This document shows positions 9,272-40,672 of a DNA stretch of 64,000 bases, one piece after another. The stretch covers positions 1-64,000 of the forward strand of contig NZ_SGWV01000007.1 of assembly GCF_004216565.1 (NCBI RefSeq), written 5' to 3'. Position 1 is the stretch's first letter; each line of letters starts with the position of its first letter. The notes under the pieces are model-generated. The model searched no databases. It was given only the letters and a program-made list of their open reading frames with translations, and had not been told where the DNA came from. Origin of the DNA: Sphaerotilus mobilis (GTDB lineage: Bacteria > Pseudomonadota > Gammaproteobacteria > Burkholderiales > Burkholderiaceae_C). The position numbers were made by a program, and so were the translations under genes.

Positions 9272-9907
9272 TCAATGACAGCCGTAGCTCGCAGCCGCCG
9301 TCACCGCACCGCTGCCCGAATAGGTGATCTTCTTCGGATACACGCACAGCGGCAGCGACACCACGTTGTTCGACGAGCTGACGGTGATGGCGTCGGGCAC
9401 AGTGCCCTGCTCCACCCAGTCCTTCAGCGCCATGAACATCTCATCGCGACCTCGCGCCGACTGCTGGACCGGCTTCGAGCCGGCCGGTGTGCGCGAAGCC
9501 CGGCACGTGGTAGTGGCGGAAGAAGGATTGCGTGAAGTCCACGCGTTCGGAATTGGCTCGGACCAACGCAGCGACGCTCTCGGCGTGACGTCCACCAATT
9601 ACCAAGATCGGCACCTGGGCGAGCAATCCAACAAGGTAGGCCGCACGTGGCAGGCCTGCACTGGGTGCGACCTCGTCCATCCGTCGCACCTCTTCGGCCT
9701 TCATGCGGATTGTCAGTTTGACCGTCCCAGTCGATGCCGCCTACACGTCCGACCGCGCCGCGATGATGCACTCTCCCGCCAGACCCAACTCACGGGCCAC
9801 AGCCGTTCTCAAGAGCACCTACACGGTCATGCGATCAACTTGGGCACGCGCCACCAGTACGGCCTTCAGGCCGCGCATGTCGACGGCGACGAAGTCGAGG
9901 TTCATGG
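9272..9907 (-). pseudogene. Decayed tannase/alpha-beta hydrolase-type gene
   Basis: Pieces of a hydrolase are spread over several minus-strand frames. An N-terminal piece MNLDFVAVDMRGLKAVLVAR (from 9907) ends at stops. A middle piece contains VPILVIGGRHAES and FRHYHVPGFAHTG, the usual end of the alpha/beta fold with the catalytic His. A C-terminal piece in another frame, MFMALKDWVEQGTVPDAI then SLPLCVYPKKITYSGSG and a final GCH, matches the tail style of tannase/feruloyl esterase proteins. At least one frameshift and several stops separate the pieces. The parent probably cleaved an aromatic or ester substrate. Confidence 0.6.
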
Positions 9908-10079
9908 TGGGGATGGACGGATAAGGGACGGATCGAGGGACTTGTGAAATCGGCGGCAGACCGCCTATCTCTGCACTCACCTCCGTCTGAAGTCTGGACC
10001 CGATTCAAGGCCTCAAGACCGATGACGTCCGGTCTCGAATCACCGTTTTCGCGCACCCCGGGACCTGTTGGCGACCCGA

Positions 10080-10200
10080 ATCCGATCCACATCCGAAGCA
10101 AATCCGGAGCAGAACCGGAACAGGACCGAACCGCTTCCGATCCGCATCCGGAACAGATCCGGCGCACAACCGGCACAAAACCGGAACAGATCCGAAACAG
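10080..10200. repeat. Array of eleven 11-bp direct repeats (iteron/centromere-like)
   Basis: Eleven abutting units of exactly 11 bp run from 10080 to 10200, with consensus AWCCGGAACAG. Examples are ATCCGGAGCAG (10102), AACCGGAACAG (10113 and 10179), ATCCGGAACAG (10146) and ATCCGAAACAG (10190). Units at 10124 and 10135 are most diverged but keep the spacing. The CCG core thus recurs about once per helical turn. The array ends 113 bp before the HTH gene of the Stb/Tra-like operon, the position of the StbA-binding repeats in plasmid R388 as I remember them. A role in segregation, oriT binding or autoregulation is inferred. Confidence 0.85.
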
Positions 10201-10312
10201 CCGATCACCACGCGCTTGTCTCAGGTCGTCCCAGGCGGTTCGCGCGACAGATCGGACCCCGAATCCATCGCTCCTCTGGGCCTCGTTCCGGTCGAGATTC
10301 GATGCGTCACCG

Positions 10313-10696
10313 ATGCAGCCCGATCGCATGCACCTGCAACCCACACGCCCGCCAGGCCGTGCCAACCGCAAGGCCCTGGTCCACGCCGCCGAGATCCGGC
10401 GGCTGCGGGCGAGCGGCTACAGCCTGGAGGCCATCCGCCACATGCTGGCGGCCGTCGGCGTGGTGGTCAGCCGCTCCACGGTCCATCGCGAGGTGACACG
10501 GCCCGACGCCCGCGTGCCGACACCGCCTCCAGTCGCGTCGACCGTCGGCCCACCGATCCCGGCGCCCGCTGCGGCGGTGCCGTGGCTCGGTCCGACGCCC
10601 TTTGCCACCGACCCGCGCAGTGGCAAGGAGATCGCCGAGGCCTTCATGAAGGGCCACATCACCAACCCCTTGATGCAAGTGAGGAACCCACGATGA
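10313..10696 (+). CDS. Small HTH protein, StbA/TraK-like, of plasmid stability/transfer module
   Basis: A 127-residue protein with a helix-turn-helix at about residues 25-65 (EIRRLRASGYSLEAIRHML, then VVVSRSTVHREV), a proline/alanine-rich linker and a short C-terminal tail (AEAFMKGHITNPLM). Its stop overlaps the next start by 4 bp (ATGA), so it is translationally coupled to the ATPase gene. By position it corresponds to StbA (R388) or TraK (RP4), DNA-binding proteins encoded before an StbB/TraL ATPase. It would bind the 11-bp array just upstream. The start is uncertain: 10328 is also an ATG, and neither has a good ribosome site. Confidence 0.65.
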   Translation: MQPDRMHLQPTRPPGRANRKALVHAAEIRRLRASGYSLEAIRHMLAAVGVVVSRSTVHREVTRPDARVPTPPPVASTVGPPIPAPAAAVPWLGPTPFATDPRSGKEIAEAFMKGHITNPLMQVRNPR

Positions 10697-11442
10697 AAGT
10701 CGCCGTGATCAGCTTCTCCGGGAACGTGGGCAAGACCACGATCGCCCGCCACCTGCTCGCCCCCCGTCTGCCCGGTGCGTCGCTCGTCTCCATCGAGAGC
10801 ATCAACGCGGGCGAGGGCGAAGACCACGTCATCCGGGGCCGCCAGTTCGCCGAGCTGCAGGAGTTCCTGCAGGTGGTCGACGACGCCGTCGTCGACATCG
10901 GCGCGAGCAACGTCGAGGAGCTGCTGGGCCTGATGCGCCGCTACCGGGGCAGCCACGAGGACTTCGACCACTACGTCGTCCCGACGGTGCCGGCGGCCAA
11001 GCAGCAGCAGGACACCATCGCCACGCTGGCCGAGCTCTCGCGCATCGGCATCCCGCCCGACAAGGTGCGCGTGGTCTTCAACATGGTCGAAGACGAGCGC
11101 GAGCTCGAGCGGGTGTTCGAGCCGGTGCTGGCCTTCGCGCGGATGACGTCACTTGCCCGGGTCACGCCCGAGTGCAGGCTTGGCAGCAACGAGGTCTACG
11201 GGCACGCCAAGGGCAGTGGTGTCGACCTGGCGACCCTGGCCGCCGACCCGACCGACTACAAGGCGCAGATCGCAGCAACGTCCGACAGCACCGAGCGTCT
11301 GGCGCTGGCGCAGCGGCTGGCCATCCGCCGCCTGGCCATCGGCGTCGTGCCCGAGCTCGATGCCTGCTTTGCAGCGCTGCGCCTCGGGGCATCGACCTCG
11401 GACACCTCTCAGCGGCATCACCCGTCGAGGTCCGCACCGTGA
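10693..11442 (+). CDS. StbB/TraL-like ParA-superfamily ATPase
   Basis: A 249-residue ATPase. The N-terminus has a deviant Walker A (ISFSGNVGKTTIARHLL), followed by VDDAVVDIGASN, a Walker B-like element, and VPTVPAAKQQQDT with VRVVFNMVEDE. This matches the StbB/TraL group of plasmid proteins, which act in plasmid positioning and conjugation. It overlaps both neighbours by 4 bp (ATGA and GTGA), so three proteins are made from one tightly coupled mRNA. No partner ParB or relaxase gene is in the window. Confidence 0.75.
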   Translation: MKVAVISFSGNVGKTTIARHLLAPRLPGASLVSIESINAGEGEDHVIRGRQFAELQEFLQVVDDAVVDIGASNVEELLGLMRRYRGSHEDFDHYVVPTVPAAKQQQDTIATLAELSRIGIPPDKVRVVFNMVEDERELERVFEPVLAFARMTSLARVTPECRLGSNEVYGHAKGSGVDLATLAADPTDYKAQIAATSDSTERLALAQRLAIRRLAIGVVPELDACFAALRLGASTSDTSQRHHPSRSAP

Positions 11443-11900
11443 GCCGCCCCAGCACCACCCGCGAGGCCCTGATCGCCGAGGCCATCGGCGACCTGGGTCA
11501 GCTGCTGCAACAGGTCGAGCAGACCCAGGCAGCCTTGCGGGCGTCCGACCTCGCGCTGAAGGAGTCGGCCGCCACGCTGGTGCAGCAGTCCACCAAGTTC
11601 CAGGCTGCCGTGGCCCAGGGCAGCAGCCGCGCCAAGGTCGAGCTCGGGCTTCACATCGCCAAGCAGGCGACGCGCACGCTTGAGGAGATGGTGTCGGTGC
11701 AGACCCAGGCGATGAACGAGACCACGCGCACCTGCTTCGCCCAGCAAATCGAGCCACAGATCCAGCGGCTGGTGCAGCCCCTGAACCGGTTGCACGATCG
11801 ACTGGAACGACCTTGGGAACGGTGGATGCTGCACGCCGCGACGGCGCTGTGCTCGTCGACGATGACCTGGGCCGTGACGGTCTACCTGCTCCGGCGCTGA
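11439..11900 (+). CDS. StbC/TraM-like coiled-coil protein with C-terminal membrane segment
   Basis: A 153-residue protein starting at GTG in a GTGA overlap with the ATPase gene. It is mostly helical and coiled-coil in character (LGQLLQQVEQTQAALRASDL and further heptad-like stretches) and ends in one hydrophobic segment (AATALCSSTMTWAVTVYLL) before RR. Size, architecture and position match the third gene of StbABC/TraKLM modules (RP4 TraM also ends in a membrane segment, from memory). The biochemical role of this family is poorly known. Confidence 0.6.
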   Translation: MSRPSTTREALIAEAIGDLGQLLQQVEQTQAALRASDLALKESAATLVQQSTKFQAAVAQGSSRAKVELGLHIAKQATRTLEEMVSVQTQAMNETTRTCFAQQIEPQIQRLVQPLNRLHDRLERPWERWMLHAATALCSSTMTWAVTVYLLRR

Positions 11901-11970
11901 GGTCTCGGCAAGCCACGGACCTCTGCCCGGCGGCCGACCCTCGACGGGTCGCGGCCGGGCCTCGCGAGCT

Positions 11971-12000
11971 GGCCGCCATGCGGCCGGCGAGCCGCTTTTT
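11971..12000 (+). terminator. Intrinsic terminator after the Stb/Tra-like operon
   Basis: GGCCGC-CAT-GCGGCC is followed by the alternative hairpin GCGGC-CGGCGA-GCCGC and then TTTTT (11996-12000). It lies 71 bp after the third gene's stop, and the T-tract fits rho-independent termination on +. Confidence 0.6.
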
Positions 12001-12093
12001 GGGTGACCCAACCGTCTCGGGCGCGCACGACGACGCGCCGGCCCCTCGTCGGAGCCGGCACGTTCGATGGCATTACCCGTGGGGCGGGGTGGC

Positions 12094-12987
12094 TCAGGCC
12101 TTGAGCCTGCGCATCTCCTCGGCCAGGATCCACAAAGCCCGGTTGATGTTGACGCTGCGGTCGATGCTGCCGACCGGGCGGGTCTCGATGCGGCGACCCT
12201 GGGCGCTGCGGCCAGGCAAGCCTCCGCGCAGGGCGTTTTCCTGCACGCGCTGGAAGGTGTTCCACAGGCTGGAGCCGACGTCCTCGATGCGGCGCGGCAT
12301 CGTCAGCTGCGCGGCGGTGATCGGCGCGGGGCTGAGGCCGTCGACGGTCTCGCCGAAGCGCAGGGCCAGCGCGGCGGTCGCGAAGGCGTGTTCCTCGTCA
12401 TCGTCCAGCGTCAGCGCCTTCATCGCCTGGGTCGACTCGCCGACGGCCTGGAAGTCGTCGAGCACCCGGAAGGCGCCTTCGATGACGTCGTGCTGGACGT
12501 TGCCCTTGTGGGGAATGCGGATGTCGTGGGCGGTCTGGCCGACCACCAGGCCGTTGCAGCAGACGAAACGGAAGACACCCGCGAGCATCTGGTAGGCGCT
12601 GGCCCCGTCATGGCTGTTGATCAGGATGATCTCGTGGGCCTCGCTGCGCGCCTGGACCTGGCCGGCGTGGCGCATGCGGATCATGTGCTTGGTGTACGCG
12701 GTCTTGCCCTCGATCCGGCTCTGGCTCTGCGCGACCATGAAGGGCTCGAAGCCTTCGCGCTTGAGGCCGCGCAGGACATCGATGGTTGGGATGTAGGCGT
12801 AGCGCTCGGAGCGGCTGGCGTGCTTGCCTTCGGCAAAGATCGACGGCGCGGTGCGACGCATCTGGTCGTCGTCCATCGGCGTCTCGCTGCGCACCACCCG
12901 GGTGTTGCGCGCGAAGCGGGTGGCGAGCTGGGCGCGGCCCTGGCTGAACATGGGGATGGGCGCGGGGCTGGTCGTGGTCGTGAACAT
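12094..12987 (-). CDS. DUF932 protein of plasmids/integrative elements
   Basis: A 297-residue protein of the DUF932 type common in the leading regions of plasmids and ICEs. Recognisable stretches are RYAYIPTIDVLRGLKREGFEP, HEIILINSHDGASAYQ, GVFRFVCCNGLVVG and a basic C-terminus. The molecular function is unknown. AAGGAA lies about 6 nt before the ATG. It is on the same strand as, and downstream of, the SSB gene with a 72-bp gap, so both may be co-expressed. Confidence 0.75.
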   Translation of the reverse strand: MFTTTTSPAPIPMFSQGRAQLATRFARNTRVVRSETPMDDDQMRRTAPSIFAEGKHASRSERYAYIPTIDVLRGLKREGFEPFMVAQSQSRIEGKTAYTKHMIRMRHAGQVQARSEAHEIILINSHDGASAYQMLAGVFRFVCCNGLVVGQTAHDIRIPHKGNVQHDVIEGAFRVLDDFQAVGESTQAMKALTLDDDEEHAFATAALALRFGETVDGLSPAPITAAQLTMPRRIEDVGSSLWNTFQRVQENALRGGLPGRSAQGRRIETRPVGSIDRSVNINRALWILAEEMRRLKA

Positions 12988-13059
12988 GGCGGTTCCTTCG
13001 GTGTGCGGTGGAAGGACCGGGCCGGCGATCTCTCAGGGGGCCGACCCGGTCGAGCGGCT

Positions 13060-13578
13060 TCAGGCGGCGGACTGGGCGGGCTGGCGGTCGGCGCGCGGCT
13101 TGTGCGCTCCGCGCGGGGCGCGGGTCTGGTGGGCGCTGGCGGCGGTGGCCGGCGTGCGGGCATCCATGCGGGCATCCGTGCGGGTGTCGGCGTCCTCGTG
13201 CGGCTCCGACTGGCCTTCGCGCTCGCGGCGCGCTTCGGACTCGGCGCGGCTGTCGAGGTAGTCGATCTCGTCGGCCGTGAAGGTCAGCGTGTGCACGGTC
13301 TCTCCGTCCTTCTCGTACCGGTGGTTCCGGACCCGGCCGATGATGTTGACGTGCGAGCCCTTGCCGAGGTAGCGCGCCGCGTTCTCGGCCTGGGCGCCCC
13401 ACAAGGTCCACTGGATCGCGGTAGCTTCCTCGTTGCGGTTGTCGCCGGAGCCGCGGCGGTTGTTGCTGATCGCGGTGAGCACGGCGCGGGCGATCGGGCC
13501 TTCGCGGCCATTGACGGTGTCGAGCTTGACGGCGCCGGCCAGGTGGGCGTGGCGCTGGGTGACGTGGACGTGGGCCAT
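13060..13578 (-). CDS. ssb: Plasmid/ICE-type single-stranded DNA-binding protein
   Basis: A 172-residue SSB-like protein. The OB fold spans about residues 1-110, with ARAVLTAISNNR, IQWTLWGAQAENAARYLGKG, VNIIGRVRNHRYEKDGETV and FTADEIDYLDS. The C-terminal third is a low-complexity, charged and Ala-rich tail lacking the acidic DDDIPF-type tip of chromosomal SSB. This resembles SSB proteins carried by plasmids to protect incoming single-stranded DNA. The start at 13578 (MAHVHVTQRH) is preferred over the longer open frame because the upstream part is non-coding in character. Confidence 0.72.
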   Translation of the reverse strand: MAHVHVTQRHAHLAGAVKLDTVNGREGPIARAVLTAISNNRRGSGDNRNEEATAIQWTLWGAQAENAARYLGKGSHVNIIGRVRNHRYEKDGETVHTLTFTADEIDYLDSRAESEARREREGQSEPHEDADTRTDARMDARTPATAASAHQTRAPRGAHKPRADRQPAQSAA

Positions 13579-13694
13579 GACGGTCTCCAAGGGTGAGCGC
13601 ATCGGCCGGATCCCGATCCGGGAGTCCTGGAAACCGATCCTCTCGCTTGGACCTTCCTCGCACCCGCCCACGGGCGGGCGGGGGGTGGGCAGGG

Positions 13695-13716
13695 CCCCTT
13701 CCCTCACGGGAAGGGG
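13695..13716. repeat. Short perfect hairpin
   Basis: CCCCTTCCC, loop TCAC, GGGAAGGGG: a perfect 9-bp stem with a 4-nt loop. It looks like the short GC-rich intergenic palindromes dispersed in many proteobacterial genomes. There is no T-tract. Confidence 0.55.
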
Positions 13717-13785
13717 TTGGGGATGGGTGGGGTTGTGCCCAGCAGCCGACGCGGTGCGCCAGTCTCCTGGCCCACCGCTGAAAGA

Positions 13786-13833
13786 TCCCCCCACAAGTCC
13801 CCCTCGCCCACAGGACGGGGGCTTGTGGGGGGA
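13786..13833. repeat. Long imperfect hairpin in gene-free DNA
   Basis: TCCCCCCACAAG (13786-13797) pairs perfectly with CTTGTGGGGGGA (13822-13833), and CCCCC (13799-13803) with GGGGG (13817-13821), leaving a single T bulge and a 13-nt loop. It could be a terminator of the SSB region or a small mobile palindrome. Confidence 0.55.
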
Positions 13834-14758
13834 GCGCGGTGGGCCGGTCTGGCGCAGGGCTGCCTCCTGTGTGCGGGCGGCGCAGAGAATCGGAGCCGAC
13901 CGCGATGACCTGAACCCCGGCGGCTCTGCGGCCGACGTGCCCCCGAGGGAGCGACAGCGGACGACTGGCGCGGCGGGCGAGACGGGGCGAGCCGGCTCGG
14001 CTGTTCGGCTGTTGGGGTGGGTGTTCGCGCGGCCCGGGAGTGAGCGTGGCGGGTGATCGGTGATGCCGATCAGCCGCGAGGTAAACGAAGAGCGCCGACC
14101 GGCTGTTCGGCCAGCGGGCCGGCCTGGGCGGCGCAGCTGCTCAGGCGGTTTCCGGCTTCAGGCCAGCGATCACCGGGCACCGGAACAGGCCACGCACCTC
14201 ATGACCGCTGGCACCGCCGGCCTGGCCGAGTTGCGTCAGGGACGGCCGCCCGGGAGGGGCGAGACGCAGGACGCAGTCCGAAGACTCGACGCGAAGCGCA
14301 ACGGCCCGACCGAGCTGAGCGAGGGGACGCCCGGTGTCCATGGTGAAGGACTGCTATGCAGCGGGTGCGGCCGGTCGCGGCCGGCCTGTGAACTCACTCA
14401 GTTCCATCAAGCAGACGTTTGGTTTGGCCGTCAGGGCTGGCCCGAGCGACAGCAATGTGAGGTGCTGCTGACATATCGGGTGCCGGGATCGGGCCGGCAT
14501 CGTCGCAACCAGGTCAATGACCGCCAGGTATCCATGAAACCGGCAGCAGCCCAGTCTTCTCGACAACATACGCGGCAGCGCGGCTACCCTCGGGCGGCTC
14601 GTCAACGACGATTGGGGCTGACGATCCCAGAAGATTCTCCCCATAGTGGCAACCATCTTATGGCAAATAATCACATGACACTGGCCGGCAGCAGCCGTTG
14701 CAAGATTGAGTCCGACCGGCGCGTCTCCATTACTCCGTGCTTAGACCGCGTACGCTCA

Positions 14759-16057
14759 TTAACCTAGGAGCGACCTTGCCTCTGAACTTTGCCCAGTTTC
14801 CGGAAATGTTGCCAAGCGTGCATGTCGCGGGCGATAGCCGGGCAGTGCCAGAATCCTCTGAACAACCGAATCGTCGAGCATTGAATTCTTCGACAACGTC
14901 CGATACGCACCGAGATTCAACCGCAGTCGGTTCTTCCAGACCCAAGCACTTCCTACCTGCACGCGCTCACTCACCAGCTTAGGAAAGACCTCAGCGGGCC
15001 ACCAAACCTTGGTAAGCGAGACGTGGGCCGGCTCGACCCAGGACTGCATCGCCGCAGCGTCGGCCAGAACGGCTTCAACGCTGCCGGGCGCCTCAGCACC
15101 AACTTCTGGCGTGAGGCCGACGCGGATCACACGCTCGAGACGCGCCACGTCGAAAGCCAAGCCATGCAAATGCGCATTAGCCACCATCCAGCAGAAGGCG
15201 ACGCGCCAGAGCGAACCTTGCTCCGGCGGATACCCGCCGCCGACGTCGGCATGTACCCCGGGAAACCAGCGTTCGACCAAGTCTTGCCCAAACTCGGCGG
15301 GCCCGGCGCTGAAGCGGTTCTGCCGGAAGAAGGCACGGCGCTCGTCCAAGGCGATCGCGTGACGCACGATCGCCACACCCGGATTGAACGCGGTGAACGG
15401 CAGGCTCAATGGCTCCCAGAACCAGCCGACCGACTTAACCGTATCCCATACGCCAATGAAGTGAACCGGCAAGCGCCGCTCGGACTGGCCAGGCACGTCG
15501 CGCGCAAAGGCATCGCGCCACGCCGCGCAGAAGTCCCGGTAGGGACCAGAGGGCTCCACGCCGGGCTTGACTGCCCCTTGCGTACCGGCCGCCTTGTACT
15601 CGCGGCTCGACGACATGAACTTGCGCATCAGATAAGGAAGCAGATTCTCGCTGCCCGCAGGCAACAGGCCGAACAAGTGCAGCAACGCGGCAAGCGCGCG
15701 CGCCGTATAAGCGCCACGACTGAAGCCAAAGATGTAGATGTGGTCGCCCGGGCGCCAGTGCTCCATAAGGTAGCGGTAGCCGCCGGTGATCTTTCCGTTG
15801 AGGCCGACCCCGAACGCCAAGCCCGCGATCTCTGAGATCTTCTTGCCAATGCCCGTGAACAGGCCTGGTTCGGGGAGCGTACCTACGCCCGGGTCGTAGT
15901 AGACGAGCTGCCGACGCGGATCTCGCTCGAGCGACTGCACAAGGCGCACGACATTGGTGTTCTCGCTGCCGAACTTGTTGTTAGTGCCGTCGAAGCAGAT
16001 GATCAGGTTGCGCGGCGCGGGCGATCGGTTGTCGTCGGGCGCGGTGTCTAGGGCCAT
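14759..16057 (-). CDS. DUF2235 protein, alpha/beta-hydrolase (Tle1-like) fold
   Basis: A 432-residue protein with the DUF2235 hallmarks: NLIICFDGTNNKFG at the N-terminus, VYYDPGVGT, the nucleophile elbow YIFGFSRGAYTARALA (about residues 107-122), FIGVWDTVKSVG and FPGVHADVGGGY. This family includes the type VI secretion phospholipase effectors Tle1 as well as uncharacterised enzymes. No VgrG, PAAR, immunity or T6SS gene is adjacent, so an effector role is not supported here. It is intact from ATG to stop and is isolated between gene-free DNA and a broken IS5 copy. Confidence 0.8.
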   Translation of the reverse strand: MALDTAPDDNRSPAPRNLIICFDGTNNKFGSENTNVVRLVQSLERDPRRQLVYYDPGVGTLPEPGLFTGIGKKISEIAGLAFGVGLNGKITGGYRYLMEHWRPGDHIYIFGFSRGAYTARALAALLHLFGLLPAGSENLLPYLMRKFMSSSREYKAAGTQGAVKPGVEPSGPYRDFCAAWRDAFARDVPGQSERRLPVHFIGVWDTVKSVGWFWEPLSLPFTAFNPGVAIVRHAIALDERRAFFRQNRFSAGPAEFGQDLVERWFPGVHADVGGGYPPEQGSLWRVAFCWMVANAHLHGLAFDVARLERVIRVGLTPEVGAEAPGSVEAVLADAAAMQSWVEPAHVSLTKVWWPAEVFPKLVSERVQVGSAWVWKNRLRLNLGAYRTLSKNSMLDDSVVQRILALPGYRPRHARLATFPETGQSSEARSLLG

Positions 16058-18479: not shown

Positions 18480-21400
18480 CTATTCCTCGTCGAGAATTCC
18501 TGCATCGAGGGCAGCCAGCGTCTGAGCCTTAATTTTCCAAGACTTCGCTAGAGCAGTCATCCGCTCCCGAACGATTGCACTCCTCACTTGCACAGCTATC
18601 GATTCAGATATATCACTCGCCAACCCCATCAGCAATCCATCTACGCGCATGGTTGGTAGGTCCAGGGTAGCAGACAACTTGGAGATGCGCGTCGCAGCGG
18701 CGTCTGCAGTAACGGTCTTTGCTTTCAAGCCACGTTCAATATCGAACAGTTCCCGGACGATCGAGTTGAGCCGCCGCCACTGCGCCGGATCGACACCATC
18801 GCCCATCCGAAGTACTTGCGCAAGGAGGATAGTGTCCTGTGACTCGGCTGAAATGTCCTTGCTCGCTTGGATCAATATTGAGGCTGCCTCAACGCGGAAT
18901 CCCCACAGCGCGTAGCTACGCGAAATGTGCAAAGCGTGGTTTATCTCCTTCTGATCGCCGGCCTTCCACTGTTCATCAATAGCAGCCTGGACATGCCGCA
19001 TGTCCAGTTCGACGACCCAGACTCCATCGCCAACCATGCGCATGACAGCGACTTGCGGAGGCGCCTCATCCTTGAAAGTAGCGTGTAGCGCTTCCTTGGC
19101 CGACATGTCCGCCCGCTGAAGGCACCCGGTCTGGCTGTGCTCCTGCGTCTCGCCTGCGGGGCAACTGCGAACAGCCTTCTGTAGGACTGAATCCCCCGTG
19201 CTTGCGTGATAGGCCTCGAGGACTTCCAGACCCGGTCCGACAGGGTCCGCTGCCTTCGCACGTGTTTCCTTGCGAACGATCGAGCCCGCAGCGGTGCTTA
19301 GAGCGATCCGCACTTTTCCCTCATCCGCCCGAATCTCCGTAATCTTGGCGTCGGAGAACACGATACGTTGCGCAACAGCGTGCGCGCCACTGGAAACTGG
19401 AGGAACACTCCAGAACGAGACCTCGCCCGCCTGCCGGCGAAGGAAAAGCGAGCCTGCCGGGGACCACAAAGCAGCTTCAGGTTCAAATGCCTCAGCGAAG
19501 TTGCGCTCTGCCAGCATTGCCAGCAGCACGCCACCGTGAATCTGGGAGGACATTACATGCTGGACCGGTCCGATTGTTGACGTGCCCTCAAATGCGTCGT
19601 CCTCGCCAAGCCCGTCGACAGTCAAGGTTGGGAGAAGGACCCCATTTCCACAACGAGCGACCTTAGACGCGAAAGCCGTCAACCAGTTGGAAATCGCTTC
19701 CGAATCCCTGCTACTCGTGATCTGCCAGGCATCCCCCTCCTTGCGCAAACCCAACGCTCTCCACTCGACATCGACATTGCGCCAAGGCTTCGCGAAGCAC
19801 TCGATGTAGGTTTTCCCATCATCGAAGTGCATGTGAACGGCGTGCGAACTGTTACCCCCTTGCTTGGAGCGCTGCACCTGCACTTGGAAAACGGGCGCCG
19901 AGCGAATGCCTGATGTCCAGGTTGGCACGGCAGCAGATCCGCTCTGCGTTTCGTTCCACTGAATGGCAGGAGTACCGGCCAAGTTTCTTGCCTTCGCCCA
20001 AACCGCGAACGCCTGCATTTGCGACAACTCGCGCAGGCGTTGCAGACTGGCCGAGCCTTGTGCAGTAGTGTTTGCCTCGCGCTGCAGCCTAGCGGCCAGA
20101 CGCTTCTCGCGCTGGCACCAAGTACCCTGTGCGTAGGGCCGCAGATCCCCTGCGACCAATTTCATTGCTTCGGACTTTGCCACAACGGCATCACCAGAAA
20201 ACACGACCCGCTTGCTCGCCGTGTTTAGTACCAGCCTTGGTGATCCACTGGTCCAGTAGAGACGGCACCAGCGGTTGTCCGTACCCACCGCCAAGTCAGC
20301 CTGGACGTTGCCTGCTTCGCCTTCCTCAGCACCCACAGACGCGTAGGCAGCAGACTTGGTGCCTGATTTCGCGTCCACGCCGAGCGCAGCGGACTTGAAT
20401 GCGACGTCGGCGTCCCAGAGAATCATGCCGATCCTCGACCTAGCGATTCCGCCAGCAGTGACAACCTCGTTCATCGCGCCGTCGCTTGCCATCGGAACTC
20501 CGCTTCCGAAGCGCATCCTTCCAGCAGGAATGTCCTTGAACCGCGCCGGATCCTTCAGATATTCATTGCGCGGATTAATGCTGAGATAGAACGCGTCCAC
20601 TCCAACGCTTACCCGGTGCCAGACTTCTTTGAACAGTTGGACGTCGCCAAAAGGCAATTCAAACGAGATCTTCGGCGTGCGCAGACATACGCGCGTGCCG
20701 CATGTGTCCACAGTTGCATCAACCAGACTCGTGTCGTTGCCTACGAGGGTGACTGCACCGCCATTGAGATAGACCATGCCGCCATCTGGCAAGGCATTTT
20801 GCTTGCGGGCGGTCGTCGAGGTGCCCGGGACGCTCCAGTTTGTCGGTACCACCGCACTGTCCAGACCGGTCGGCGAGAGGTATCGCACCGCAGTGTTGGC
20901 AGGGGCCGTAGCGAGCGCAACAGGAGCTCTCGCAGCTTCCTCTGTTGCTACCGAAACATATGCAACCGGTTGGGTAGCTTGGGACGTAGCTGGAGAAAAC
21001 GGCCTGTTCTTCTTCAGGTCCTGCGCCGGCATTCCGCGGGGCGGCAGATAGCCAGCCTCGAAACCTGGCGTCAATATGCTGCCGTGCGATGCCAAACGCG
21101 CATCCAGTATTTCTGTCGCCCCCCCGCCGCCGCTCGAACCGGCACCGCCGGAGGGCCGGTTCGGGCTCGGCGAAGGCGGAATAGGGCTGGTACCTGGACC
21201 GAATGACTCAGGTGGCGCCTTGAACATCATCGTGCGGATCTCGTCAAAGAGCGCAAGCTCCTCGGCCTTAGCTTTGGATGGCGCCTGTTTCTCGACTCGA
21301 GACCGTGCGTGTTCGACAAACAGCGCGTAGCTGTCCCGGTTTGCGGCTGTGTGCATCGAGGGGCGAACACCGCCCTTGTCTATTACGACACTCTCCAGCG

Positions 21401-22301
21401 AGCCCGTGAAAATAACATTCTCTGCACCAAGTCCCTTCATCAGCCGAGCGAGGATGGGCGAGGTTGGGTGGCCGAACCGATTATTCGGGTTCACCGCGAT
21501 TATGGCCTGATGCGGATTTAACTCAAGGATAGGAGATATGTCGTGGTACTTGGACCCATGATGCGGCACAACAAAGACATCGATCTTATTGATTCCTGAC
21601 GCCTTCAACTTGTCCACTGCGGAGCGGATCGCTGCTGAATCCGCGTCATCGAAATCCGCAATCACCGGTCCGTCCTTGAATCTGGTCAGCGTGACGATGG
21701 ATCGTCCGTGCTCCTTGGCCTTGCCTTTACGGTCGTAGGCAACGTTCTCGATCGTCAGCGCCTTCTGTAGATCAGCCAATTGTCGGTATGCATTTCCCGG
21801 GCGGCCCGCCGCATCTGTGACTGCGATCCGCGTGAACTTGATGTCCGTTCTACCGTCAACGGATTTGGCAAAACTCTCGTAAAGCTTCGCCAGCGAGTTG
21901 GACACGCCGTCGTCAATCACAGTGATAGACTTGAACTTCGGCTTGGAAAGATCCCCATCAAAGTAGAAACTGCGCTTGGCATTCTTGAACAGGGCCTCGA
22001 TTCCACCCATATGGTCCGCATGCGGATGCGAGCAGGCGACGACGAAGTTCTCAACTTTTTTTTCGAGAGCCACGAAGTCCACCAAGGGCTTACCATTGAT
22101 CACCACTTGATTGCCATCGCCGCTCTTTCCGAGGTCAACGATGAACGCGGTTCGTGACTGGTCGTCAATCGTGACGCTAGCTTGCCCTTCACGCTGCAAG
22201 GGTAAATGGTACATTTCCTGCGCATTTGCAGGTTCGCAGGCTAACGGCAGCGCCAAAATCAGAACTGCGACAGCGACCCATCGTTGGCAACACTGGAACA
22301 T
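18480..22301 (-). CDS. Giant exported metallo-beta-lactamase-fold protein, unknown role
   Basis: A 1273-residue protein, intact from ATG to stop. Residues 1-28 are a signal peptide (hydrophobic VAVAVLILALPLAC, then ANAQ). Residues about 40-320 are a metallo-beta-lactamase domain with the metal motif SHPHADHMGG (HxHxDH at 92-97), an acidic stretch ADFDDAD near 215-221, VVPHHGSKYHD near 244-254 and NPNNRFGHP. This resembles the ComEC-like or secreted MBL hydrolase group. Residues about 368-396 are a Pro/Ser/Gly linker. The remaining roughly 870 residues match no domain I recognise. They include GMILWDADVAFKSAALGVD, a Cys-rich spot (DTCGTRVCLRTP) and a helical C-terminus. Base use is less GC-rich than the chromosomal genes. 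The flanks are broken IS copies, which suggests acquisition by transfer. The catalytic substrate is unknown. Confidence 0.75.
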   Translation of the reverse strand: MFQCCQRWVAVAVLILALPLACEPANAQEMYHLPLQREGQASVTIDDQSRTAFIVDLGKSGDGNQVVINGKPLVDFVALEKKVENFVVACSHPHADHMGGIEALFKNAKRSFYFDGDLSKPKFKSITVIDDGVSNSLAKLYESFAKSVDGRTDIKFTRIAVTDAAGRPGNAYRQLADLQKALTIENVAYDRKGKAKEHGRSIVTLTRFKDGPVIADFDDADSAAIRSAVDKLKASGINKIDVFVVPHHGSKYHDISPILELNPHQAIIAVNPNNRFGHPTSPILARLMKGLGAENVIFTGSLESVVIDKGGVRPSMHTAANRDSYALFVEHARSRVEKQAPSKAKAEELALFDEIRTMMFKAPPESFGPGTSPIPPSPSPNRPSGGAGSSGGGGATEILDARLASHGSILTPGFEAGYLPPRGMPAQDLKKNRPFSPATSQATQPVAYVSVATEEAARAPVALATAPANTAVRYLSPTGLDSAVVPTNWSVPGTSTTARKQNALPDGGMVYLNGGAVTLVGNDTSLVDATVDTCGTRVCLRTPKISFELPFGDVQLFKEVWHRVSVGVDAFYLSINPRNEYLKDPARFKDIPAGRMRFGSGVPMASDGAMNEVVTAGGIARSRIGMILWDADVAFKSAALGVDAKSGTKSAAYASVGAEEGEAGNVQADLAVGTDNRWCRLYWTSGSPRLVLNTASKRVVFSGDAVVAKSEAMKLVAGDLRPYAQGTWCQREKRLAARLQREANTTAQGSASLQRLRELSQMQAFAVWAKARNLAGTPAIQWNETQSGSAAVPTWTSGIRSAPVFQVQVQRSKQGGNSSHAVHMHFDDGKTYIECFAKPWRNVDVEWRALGLRKEGDAWQITSSRDSEAISNWLTAFASKVARCGNGVLLPTLTVDGLGEDDAFEGTSTIGPVQHVMSSQIHGGVLLAMLAERNFAEAFEPEAALWSPAGSLFLRRQAGEVSFWSVPPVSSGAHAVAQRIVFSDAKITEIRADEGKVRIALSTAAGSIVRKETRAKAADPVGPGLEVLEAYHASTGDSVLQKAVRSCPAGETQEHSQTGCLQRADMSAKEALHATFKDEAPPQVAVMRMVGDGVWVVELDMRHVQAAIDEQWKAGDQKEINHALHISRSYALWGFRVEAASILIQASKDISAESQDTILLAQVLRMGDGVDPAQWRRLNSIVRELFDIERGLKAKTVTADAAATRISKLSATLDLPTMRVDGLLMGLASDISESIAVQVRSAIVRERMTALAKSWKIKAQTLAALDAGILDEE

Positions 22302-24438: not shown

Positions 24439-25725
24439 TCAAGCAGCCTTCAACCGCCGCACCTTCGCCACCATTGCCGCCATCTGATCCATCTTGATCC
24501 ACGCATCCACCATGTCGGACCACGCCTGAAGCATGCCGCGTCGTTGGTCGGCGTACTCGGCCTTGTTGTAGACCGCGCGCACGCCGCCCTGCTCATGGGC
24601 CAGGCACTTCTCGATCCAGTCGCTGTTGAATCCTGACTCGTGCAGCAAGGTGCTGGCGGTGCGGCGCAGGTCATGGACGGTGAAAGGTTCGAAGGCTTGA
24701 CCGTCAGCCTGGATCAGCTCGACCGTGGCGTCGATGACGCGATTGAGCGTCGCGGCGCTGATGGACTTGCGGATCTCGTAGCGGCCGGGGTGCAGGTAGG
24801 TGCTGGCAGCAAAGCACGTCTTGAAGGCGACCAGGATGTCGAGCGCCTGCTGGCTCAGGTAGACGTTGTGCGCCCTGCCCGCCTTCATGCGTTCCTTCGG
24901 AATCGTCCAGGTTTCGGTGTCGAAGTGGATCTCGTCCCAGGTGGCCTGGATGAACTCCGTCTTGCGCACCATCGTCAGGAGGAGGAAGCGCACCGCCAGT
25001 CGAAGCGTCGGCATGGTTGCCGTGCGCTCGAGGGCGTTGAAGAAGATGTGTATCTCCGACGGCGACAGCGCACGGTCACGCGGTTTGAAGGTCGCGATCG
25101 CGCTGGGGCGGATGGCTTCTGCTGGGTTGTCCACGGCGATGCCTCGGGCGGCCATGAACCGGAAGATCTGTTGAACGATCTCACGGGCCTGAACCGCCGG
25201 TGCAGCTGCACCTCGTTCCTTGATCTTCTGGCAGCGCGACAGCAGCAGGCGTGGCGTGATCTCTTCGGGCTTCAAGCGTCCGAATTCAGCGCGCAGGTTG
25301 CGCTGGTAGACCGAGCGACGCATGGCGCGGGTGGAATCCGCGAGCTTGACCTCCGCGAAGTAGAGATCGGCCCACTCGCCAAACGTCTTCGCGGCCACGA
25401 CGTCACCCCGACGCTGAACCTTGGCACGCGAAGGGCTTTCCCCGCGTTCGACCGATCGGTGGGCCTTGGTCAGCAACAGCCGGGCCTCGGCCAGGGTGAT
25501 GGCCATGCCGAAGTCGAGGGTTTCGACCTCCCGGGGCCGACGTGCGCCGAGGTTGGGGTCGTACTTGCCGACCACCAGCGTTTCGCGCCGACCATTGACG
25601 CGGTAGTCGAAACGGAAGCTCACCTGGCCGGACGGCAGCACGGCGGCGTACAGCCCTTGCTGGTCGGCGACCTTGTAGATCTTCCCCGTGGGCTTGAGCG
25701 CTCGGACTTCCAGATCGGTGAGCAT
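24439..25725 (-). CDS. Tyrosine recombinase (P4-type integrase) at guaA
   Basis: A 428-residue phage-integrase-family recombinase. The N-terminal P4-integrase DUF4102-type domain has LTDLEVRALKPTGKIYKVADQ, and the core-binding domain has FGEWADLYFAE. The catalytic domain shows the first Arg in LLLTMVRKTEFIQATW, HDLRRTAST (HxxR), LAHEQGGVRAVY and the terminal Tyr in AVYNKAEYADQRR. All expected residues are present, so it may be active. The ATG at 25725 is preferred because GGGGAGGCAGG lies just before it; a TTG at 25749 extends the frame. It lies 443 bp from the guaA 3' end and points away from it, as integrases beside an attachment site often do. Upstream DNA is full of a repeated decamer. 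Confidence 0.88.
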   Translation of the reverse strand: MLTDLEVRALKPTGKIYKVADQQGLYAAVLPSGQVSFRFDYRVNGRRETLVVGKYDPNLGARRPREVETLDFGMAITLAEARLLLTKAHRSVERGESPSRAKVQRRGDVVAAKTFGEWADLYFAEVKLADSTRAMRRSVYQRNLRAEFGRLKPEEITPRLLLSRCQKIKERGAAAPAVQAREIVQQIFRFMAARGIAVDNPAEAIRPSAIATFKPRDRALSPSEIHIFFNALERTATMPTLRLAVRFLLLTMVRKTEFIQATWDEIHFDTETWTIPKERMKAGRAHNVYLSQQALDILVAFKTCFAASTYLHPGRYEIRKSISAATLNRVIDATVELIQADGQAFEPFTVHDLRRTASTLLHESGFNSDWIEKCLAHEQGGVRAVYNKAEYADQRRGMLQAWSDMVDAWIKMDQMAAMVAKVRRLKAA

Positions 25726-25738
25726 CCTGCCTCCCCGC

Positions 25739-26052
25739 GATACCGTCAAAGATACCGTCAGCTGATTTGACGGTATCGACCTGAATCGCCCAAGTGAGGC
25801 CCTGCCAGATACCGTCAGACCAGCGCTTCATTCGCTGGGATCGTCTAGGACGACCTGAGATACCATCAGACGCTAAGTCCTTGTCGCATCACAACTTTCC
25901 ATTGATTCAACGAGTGATCAAGGGCGTTTTCGATAGCGAAAAGTGACCGAAATGTCCTGTGGACAACTCGCCCCCGATACCGTCAGCGGCTCTGACGGTA
26001 TCGAGACGGGTGATTTCACCCGACTCAGCCGATACCGTCACAGATACCTTCA
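25739..26052. repeat. Nine copies of a GATACCGTCA-type decamer, candidate integrase arm sites
   Basis: Exact copies lie on + at 25739, 25751, 25808, 25976 and 26031, and inverted copies (TGACGGTATC) at 25768 and 25993. Single-mismatch copies are at 25859 (GATACCATCA) and 26043 (GATACCTTCA). All fall between the integrase start and the guaA end, several in back-to-back or inverted pairs. The layout suggests arm-type binding sites of the integrase or its excisionase, or operators of the integrase gene. Otherwise 25726-26167 holds no gene. Confidence 0.8.
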
Positions 26053-40576: not shown

Positions 40577-40617
40577 CGGTGTGCAGGCCCGGGGTGGGAC
40601 CGGTGGAGGTGAAAGGT

Positions 40618-40672
40618 CAGGTGCCGCTCAGGCGTTGCTCAGGTGTCGCTGAGGTGCCGCTCAGGTGTCATC
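40618..40672. repeat. Five 11-bp tandem repeats at the end of yceH
   Basis: Units CAGGTGCCGCT (40618), CAGGCGTTGCT (40629), CAGGTGTCGCT (40640), GAGGTGCCGCT (40651) and CAGGTGTCATC (40662) abut exactly. The array fills the gap before the thioesterase gene and runs into the last codons of yceH. Confidence 0.75.

Follow-up and report, generated by a model that had tools for sequence, protein, structure and literature searches.

A run of eleven abutting 11-bp repeats in Sphaerotilus mobilis is best explained, given a local anatomy like that of plasmid R388, as an stbDR-type site to which StbA would bind, and which would control the stb operon and balance stability against transfer. We put the probability of this reading at about 0.77. 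The array lies near the start of the 64,000-nt stretch of DNA that was analysed (hereafter, the window). What we observe is the array itself, conservation of its period in related loci, a shared gene order, a hairpin followed by a nic-like core, and a set of transfer genes that goes undetected in this genome. The features are collected in Table 1.

Table 1. Positions of the array and of adjoining features in the window.
Feature	Position	Strand	Basis and remarks
Remnant of NikA-like ribbon-helix-helix (RHH) relaxosome accessory gene	9545..9905	-	Pseudogene with two in-frame stops; left edge approximate, by eye
Inverted repeat GGCGG-CAGA-CCGCC of predicted oriT	9952..9965	+	17 aligned loci
Predicted nic core TATCTCTG/C (slash, nic)	9966..9974	+	Single-copy 20-bp block; nic-like core in relatives; likeness to pBS228
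Proposed StbA-binding array (stbDR-like)	10080..10200	+	Eleven abutting 11-bp units, core WCCGRNNCR
stbA-like HTH gene, 127 aa	10313..10696	+	Relatives suggest start at 10328; Pfam HTH_32 below cut-off
stbB, ParA/MinD-like ATPase	10693..11442	+	NCBIfam StbB, 289.8 bits (cut-off 200)
stbC-like gene, 153 aa	11439..11900	+	tblastn matches in 32/43 sequences (window included)
DUF932 gene, conserved ICE-family neighbour	12094..12987	-	Pfam DUF932, 3.6e-49; 27/43 sequences (window included)
Single-strand DNA-binding protein (SSB) gene, conserved ICE-family neighbour	13060..13794	-	Pfam SSB; 25/43 sequences (window included)

Structure of the array

The array is 121 bp long, and its units keep phase throughout, unbroken by insertions or deletions, which bears out the eleven abutting units described in the initial annotation. 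The “perfectly phased” repeats of that annotation are thus correct as to phase, but the units are not identical: in order, they match ATCCGGAACAG at 7, 8, 10, 10, 5, 5, 11, 8, 8, 10 and 10 of 11 positions. CCG at unit positions 3–5 and C at position 9 (read by eye) are invariant in all eleven. Tandem Repeats Finder reports a period of 11 at 10091–10200 and also a period of 55 at 10080–10195, a five-unit higher-order repeat that reads as a duplicated block of five units. With a helical repeat of ~10.5 bp, the units move round the helix by about half a turn in ten steps of 11 bp, so the proposal that they share one DNA face holds only approximately along the full array. The distance of 113 bp from the end of the array to the HTH gene agrees with the earlier description if that gene starts at 10313; alignment with relatives favors 10328.

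The array stands out within the window and is the only one of its kind found in the genome. Based on the best ungapped segment for each period from 6 to 40, it scores 58.0, as compared with 32.0 for the next best period in the window and a maximum of 20.8 at periods 10–12 in 20 copies drawn from a first-order Markov model of the window. The window has 10 occurrences of the pair pattern WCCGRNNCR..WCCGRNNCR (0.17 expected), every one of them inside the array. Across the 4.65-Mb genome, a three-unit pattern has 12 forward and 0 reverse matches, nine of the 12 being inside the array, and this search finds no second run of the motif. The three isolated matches elsewhere equal the reversed-pattern control (2 + 1), and were rejected as secondary array sites. 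A known RNA element was likewise rejected as the identity of the array, the window having no Rfam match at gathering thresholds. Another 11-bp tandem repeat, TCAGGTGTCGC (4.8 copies at 40617–40669, close to where two minus-strand ORFs meet), has letters unrelated to those of the array.

The stb operon

The three genes that follow the array overlap by 4 bp and so are taken as one operon, stbA-stbB-stbC, with the gene of the StbB-family ATPase in the middle. The claim that the HTH gene is coupled to an StbB-like ATPase is supported by an NCBIfam StbB match above cut-off and by 48% identity to R388 StbB. The stbC-like product has a hydrophobic C-terminal segment (by eye), and the gene shows a short match to R388 stbC (30 residues, 50%, E 9e-5). 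No sigma-70-like promoter was found at 9900–12100.

The HTH protein is less readily placed. Its structural model has confident helices in residues 17–62, with a mean pLDDT of 66.7 overall. The protein has no match to NCBIfam StbA, and its hhalign probability against R388 StbA is 19%. The DNA-binding domain of StbA is reportedly the subject of a 2022 paper; superposed on the solved R388 StbA domain (7pc1), the model gives a Z of 5.0 over 59 residues at 3.9 Å, a result tied with unrelated HTH chains. Judged by sequence, the StbA of the window thus appears too diverged for a confident homology call to that of R388, or for placement, which is one difference between the two systems. Relative to the Leptothrix discophora locus (L002), dN/dS values (NG86) are 0.23 for stbB, 0.47 for stbA, 0.38 for DUF932, 0.34 for SSB and 0.94 for stbC, values that cannot tell selection before the loss of transfer genes from selection after it.

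Conservation of the period in related loci

The period of the array is kept in many relatives while its letters change. For each of 71 loci we took the best ungapped tandem segment (periods 6–30) within 390 bp of sequence, beginning 720 bp and ending 330 bp ahead of stbB. The best period is 11 in 28 loci and 22 in 14 (42/71 together), and with near-copies removed it is 11 or 22 in 33/60 loci, as compared with 13/300 control stretches from the same sequences. That homologous operons should be preceded by an array of 11-bp period had been set beforehand as a check on the proposal, and the 33/60 non-redundant loci pass it. By StbB identity (window included), such loci make up 28/42 at 55% or above, 3/9 at 45–55%, and 2/9 below that. 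The remaining 27 of the 60 have another best period, which may reflect decay, divergence between units or true absence. Pooled autocorrelation over 44 nic-anchored loci is 0.090 at lag 11, 0.056 at 22, 0.048 at 33 and 0.022 at 44, with a standard deviation of 0.0086 for the other lags and a lesser value of 0.024 at lag 53. The window ranks second of the 71 loci by array score; only L006 is higher (83.4). R388, put through the same test, also has 11 as its best period.

These results bear on a neutral tandem repeat or coding low complexity as the origin of the array. An open frame (9944–10696) does happen to cross it, but 11 is no multiple of 3, and both position and period recur across many loci while the letters change. 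With the Markov copies reaching no more than 20.8 and the period kept in 33 of 60 loci, a chance or coding repeat was rejected, and we regard it as having virtually no likelihood.

The unit letters are CCGGAACA in the window and L002, CGGACC in L006, CTGCATAG in L012 and L016, and TCGAACCAG in L017 and L030. Over 24 loci, the similarity of array letters is correlated with that of StbB (r 0.63) and with that of the HTH protein (r 0.55); the partial correlations are weak for the HTH protein (0.20, P 0.014) and stronger for StbB (0.40). Because the letters track StbB more closely than the HTH protein, co-divergence over these 24 loci fails to single out the HTH protein as the binder, and was set aside as a means of identifying it.

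A predicted origin of transfer

Upstream of the array, the segment 9952–9974 consists of a hairpin and, after it, TATCTCTGC. Over 17 loci, 91.8% of the cells of the hairpin alignment are paired, a value that none of 500 shuffles reaches and that falls to 34–59% in slid versions; the rows of L006 and L022, counted as unpaired at the inner pairs, look shifted by one column. At one of the five pairs, 6/17 loci have C-G in place of G-C, both members having changed; as a count, pairs with such two-sided changes do not exceed those in shuffles. The folding energy of the region is unremarkable (z -0.93). The pairing across loci is more telling than the folding energy, though it rests on one covarying pair.

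In oriTs of the IncP/MOBP type, the nic consensus is YATCCTG/Y, with an inverted repeat directly 5′ of the core. The window has this arrangement, except that its core carries one extra base relative to the YATCCTG/Y-like form (TATCTCTG/C). The 20-bp block that holds it is present in a single copy in the genome, allowing up to 2 mismatches. In non-redundant loci, CTATC-N(0-2)-TGC is found upstream of stbB in 37/42 at 55% StbB identity or above (window included), 4/9 at 45–55%, and 0/9 below; the background is 49/1135 when the same sequences are cut into 450-bp tiles, true sites included. With a wider pattern, six loci read TATCYTGC. A core resembling that of the window is also matched at the oriT of the IncP plasmid pBS228. 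The hairpin, the conserved nic-like core and the likeness to pBS228 therefore predict an IncP-like, MOBP-like oriT with nic at 9973/9974.

The array starts ~106 bp after the predicted nic, which is upstream of it on the same strand, so that the array sits on the leading side of the predicted oriT. In relatives too, wherever a nic-like core is found it is upstream of the best 11-bp segment, and array and oriT thus go together in those loci. Several loci (L061, L033, L034 and others) have the 11-bp period without the CTATC-N(0-2)-TGC core, and other loci have the core without a clear array.

A family of Burkholderiales ICEs

A search for related loci gave 36. StbB is present in 29/299 genomes at the family level (that of the window included) and in 0/3 of the same-genus genomes listed, a distribution which suggests that the module came horizontally. 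Further counts are from tblastn against 43 sequences (42 loci and the window), many of them cut by contig ends: a MobP1-like relaxase beside the module is matched in 21, accessory protein in 24 and StbA in 32, with the other genes as given in Table 1. The gene order in relatives is relaxase-accessory-oriT-array-stbABC. Three relaxases scanned, from chromosomal loci, match Pfam Relaxase and, below NCBIfam's cut-off, also MobP1, and both accessory proteins scanned are barely above the cut-off of Pfam NikA-like.

The ICE context comes from two loci that were fetched at length. The first (G012:C14) has tRNA-Ala, integrase, VirB4, VirB9-like (CagX), VirB11-like and VirD4-like genes, then the accessory gene, nic, array and stbABC; its adjacent relaxase is truncated, with a match only to residue 118. 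In the second (G005:C1), integrase, VirB4 and relaxase share a 57-kb contig with the stb operon. Since integrase and VirB4 genes accompany the stb genes in these loci, some members of the family are integrated conjugative elements (ICEs); the module has plasmid relatives too. A relative ICE that looks intact is that of Ideonella azotifigens DSM 21438 (L008), with a MobP1-like relaxase. VirB4 is found in 12/16 genomes tested, that of the window being among the four without it, and relaxase in 11/11 other genomes tested. In a Hydrogenophaga MAG (L011), the stb end of the element has a tRNA-Pro gene (10311–10387) ~1.7 kb past SSB, a possible integration site.

With an SSB gene fairly close by, the direct repeats might also be the iterons of a replication origin used by the excised element. 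Iterons are usually ~17–22 bp long, however, and no replication initiator was found among the nearby window genes scanned with Pfam and NCBIfam, so this identity is very improbable.

The copy in the window

The module in the window appears to be the leftover of an ICE, spanning ~9.5–14.4 kb, without relaxase, T4CP or T4SS. The genome is rated 100% complete, and relaxase (PF03432), T4CP (PF02534) and VirB4 (PF03135) were not detected anywhere in it; nor was an element found there that combines integrase, relaxase, T4CP and T4SS. No relaxase gene was detected in the window or genome to go with the predicted oriT, as compared with 21/43 sequences in the related set, several of which are cut by contig ends. 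The accessory gene is broken: it matches the accessory protein of L011 (tblastn, 48% over 132 columns, E 1e-26) and runs into a C-terminal tannase fragment (9272–9598), which probably marks the deletion junction of the remnant. On the other side, the window is colinear with L002 from 10226 to 14378 (79% identity), and the limits of the remnant are drawn from this colinearity and the broken gene. In L002, too, neither a relaxase in the 6 kb next to the oriT nor a VirB4 anywhere in the genome was found; a relaxase gene is present on another contig.

The integrase at 24439–25749 was considered as part of the same element and rejected, being 24–29% identical to the integrases of related loci and lying past the end of the L002 colinearity at 14378; it likelier belongs to a separate island. 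The initial annotation had placed the site on a chromosomal island, which we can refine to a Burkholderiales ICE family and to a place beside a predicted oriT, a feature that annotation does not name; self-transfer is not upheld, with relaxase, VirB4 and T4CP undetected. Three other features of the region were recorded. Palindromic direct repeats (GATACCGTCA...TGACGGTATC, at 25751–25779 and 25976–26004) lie just upstream of the integrase gene and are possible attachment or recombinase sites. A gene just past the remnant, at 14759–16057, encodes a protein with a Tle1-like phospholipase effector domain (Pfam 4.5e-75). A 1273-aa protein of unusual base composition (18480–22301) has weak matches to LmuA (Lamassu-type) and metallo-beta-lactamase.

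The state of this copy is relevant to whether the array is bound, as part of oriT, by the NikA-like RHH accessory protein or the relaxase rather than by StbA. Repeats at oriT are targets of RHH accessory proteins in other systems, and the array does start ~106 bp past the predicted nic. Yet here, with a broken accessory gene and no relaxase detected, the array keeps a score of 58.0, second of 71 loci; in R388, moreover, it is StbA that binds the corresponding repeats (PMC3098194). We therefore consider binding by these proteins unlikely.

Comparison with known systems

A close parallel in anatomy is R388 (IncW), as described in PMC3098194. There, the targets of StbA are 9-bp repeats in two sets of five, with 2-nt spacers, i.e., a pitch of 11 bp, in agreement with the initial annotation, which gave 9-bp repeats of similar spacing upstream of stbA. 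The window shares with R388 the 11-bp-spaced direct repeats upstream of stbA, the three-gene stb operon, the StbB similarity noted above and an oriT-proximal position in the leading region. It differs in having 11 contiguous units with a CCG...C core, a predicted oriT that is MOBP-like and a chromosomal location, where R388 has two sets of five units, the consensus TTGCATCAT and a MobF relaxase. The suggestion of a new kind of site is thus not sustained; the array is stbDR-like, with other letters.

IncP-1 plasmids (RP4 type, pBS228) are similar in gene order and orientation around nic, and have the core CTATCCTGC. The pBS228 order, traI-traJ-oriT-traK-traL-traM, parallels relaxase-accessory-oriT-array-stbABC in the relatives, with TraK in the place of StbA. 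However, pBS228 has no 11-bp period upstream of traK in the period test, and IncP TraL is only 24% identical to the StbB of the window. Two further plasmids also resemble the window, though in them the module is plasmid-borne. The Achromobacter plasmid pKUN4507_1 (typed MOBP/MPF_T) has the nic-like core and the mobC-stbABC order, with weak periodicity (11.4). Paracidovorax citrulli pACM6 (non-mobilizable by PLSDB type) has a nic-like core and stbABC; its stretch of 11-bp periodicity scores 24.8, its relaxase is related (38%), and its StbB is 51% identical.

Proposed function

By analogy with R388, the array, lying on the leading side of oriT, would serve an R388-type StbA as its cis site. Cooperative binding of the units by the HTH protein that the next gene encodes is most likely, one every 11 bp, and this protein may wrap or stiffen the DNA between nic and stbA while repressing its own operon. 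In an intact element, StbA would keep the excised circle segregating and StbB would free it for transfer. Binding, repression, segregation and the balance of stability and transfer are all modeled on R388, in which deletion of stbA raises transfer 50-fold and destabilizes the plasmid, deletion of stbB abolishes transfer, and the effects of StbA run mainly via the repeats (PMC3098194). In S. mobilis itself, autorepression would be the sole function still able to operate unaided.

The array might instead be an operator and nothing else, used by StbA or some other regulator to repress the stb operon, with no part in segregation or transfer. It does lie upstream of that operon, R388 StbA lowers its own promoter PstbA 50-fold (PMC3937220), and self-transfer looks impossible in the window. 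Against this, 121 bp would seem to exceed the need of a simple operator, and the array and oriT occur together wherever the nic-like core is found. We regard a purely regulatory site as a realistic but improbable alternative to the StbA site with roles in stability and transfer.

Significance

The Stb system itself is of a known kind: a partition system, with an ATPase that is dispensable for stability, described from plasmids. The words “integrative” and “ICE” appear 0 times in the main text of the R388 paper (PMC3098194), and the titles and abstract beginnings of the literature matches listed contain no description of StbA arrays on ICEs. Set against these matches, the new points are that the system is found on Burkholderiales ICEs and that its pitch is constant while its letters drift, together with the oriT prediction and the stranded copy.

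More broadly, and tentatively, since we hold it at rather less than even odds, StbA arrays may be widespread, plasmid-independent centromere or transfer-gate sites on Burkholderiales ICEs, in which the 11-bp pitch is selected while the letters drift with the cognate protein, and of which a stranded oriT-stb unit could outlive its ICE and be mobilised in trans by an incoming relative. If so, the pitch would be read by spacing, via a protein filament or a wrapped complex. Some thirty natural arrays (the 33/60 non-redundant loci) with one pitch and different letters allow the way in which StbA reads DNA to be tested by comparison. The predicted oriT gives this ICE family a specific, testable nick site, and ICEs that carry Stb bear on how excised elements persist through cell division.
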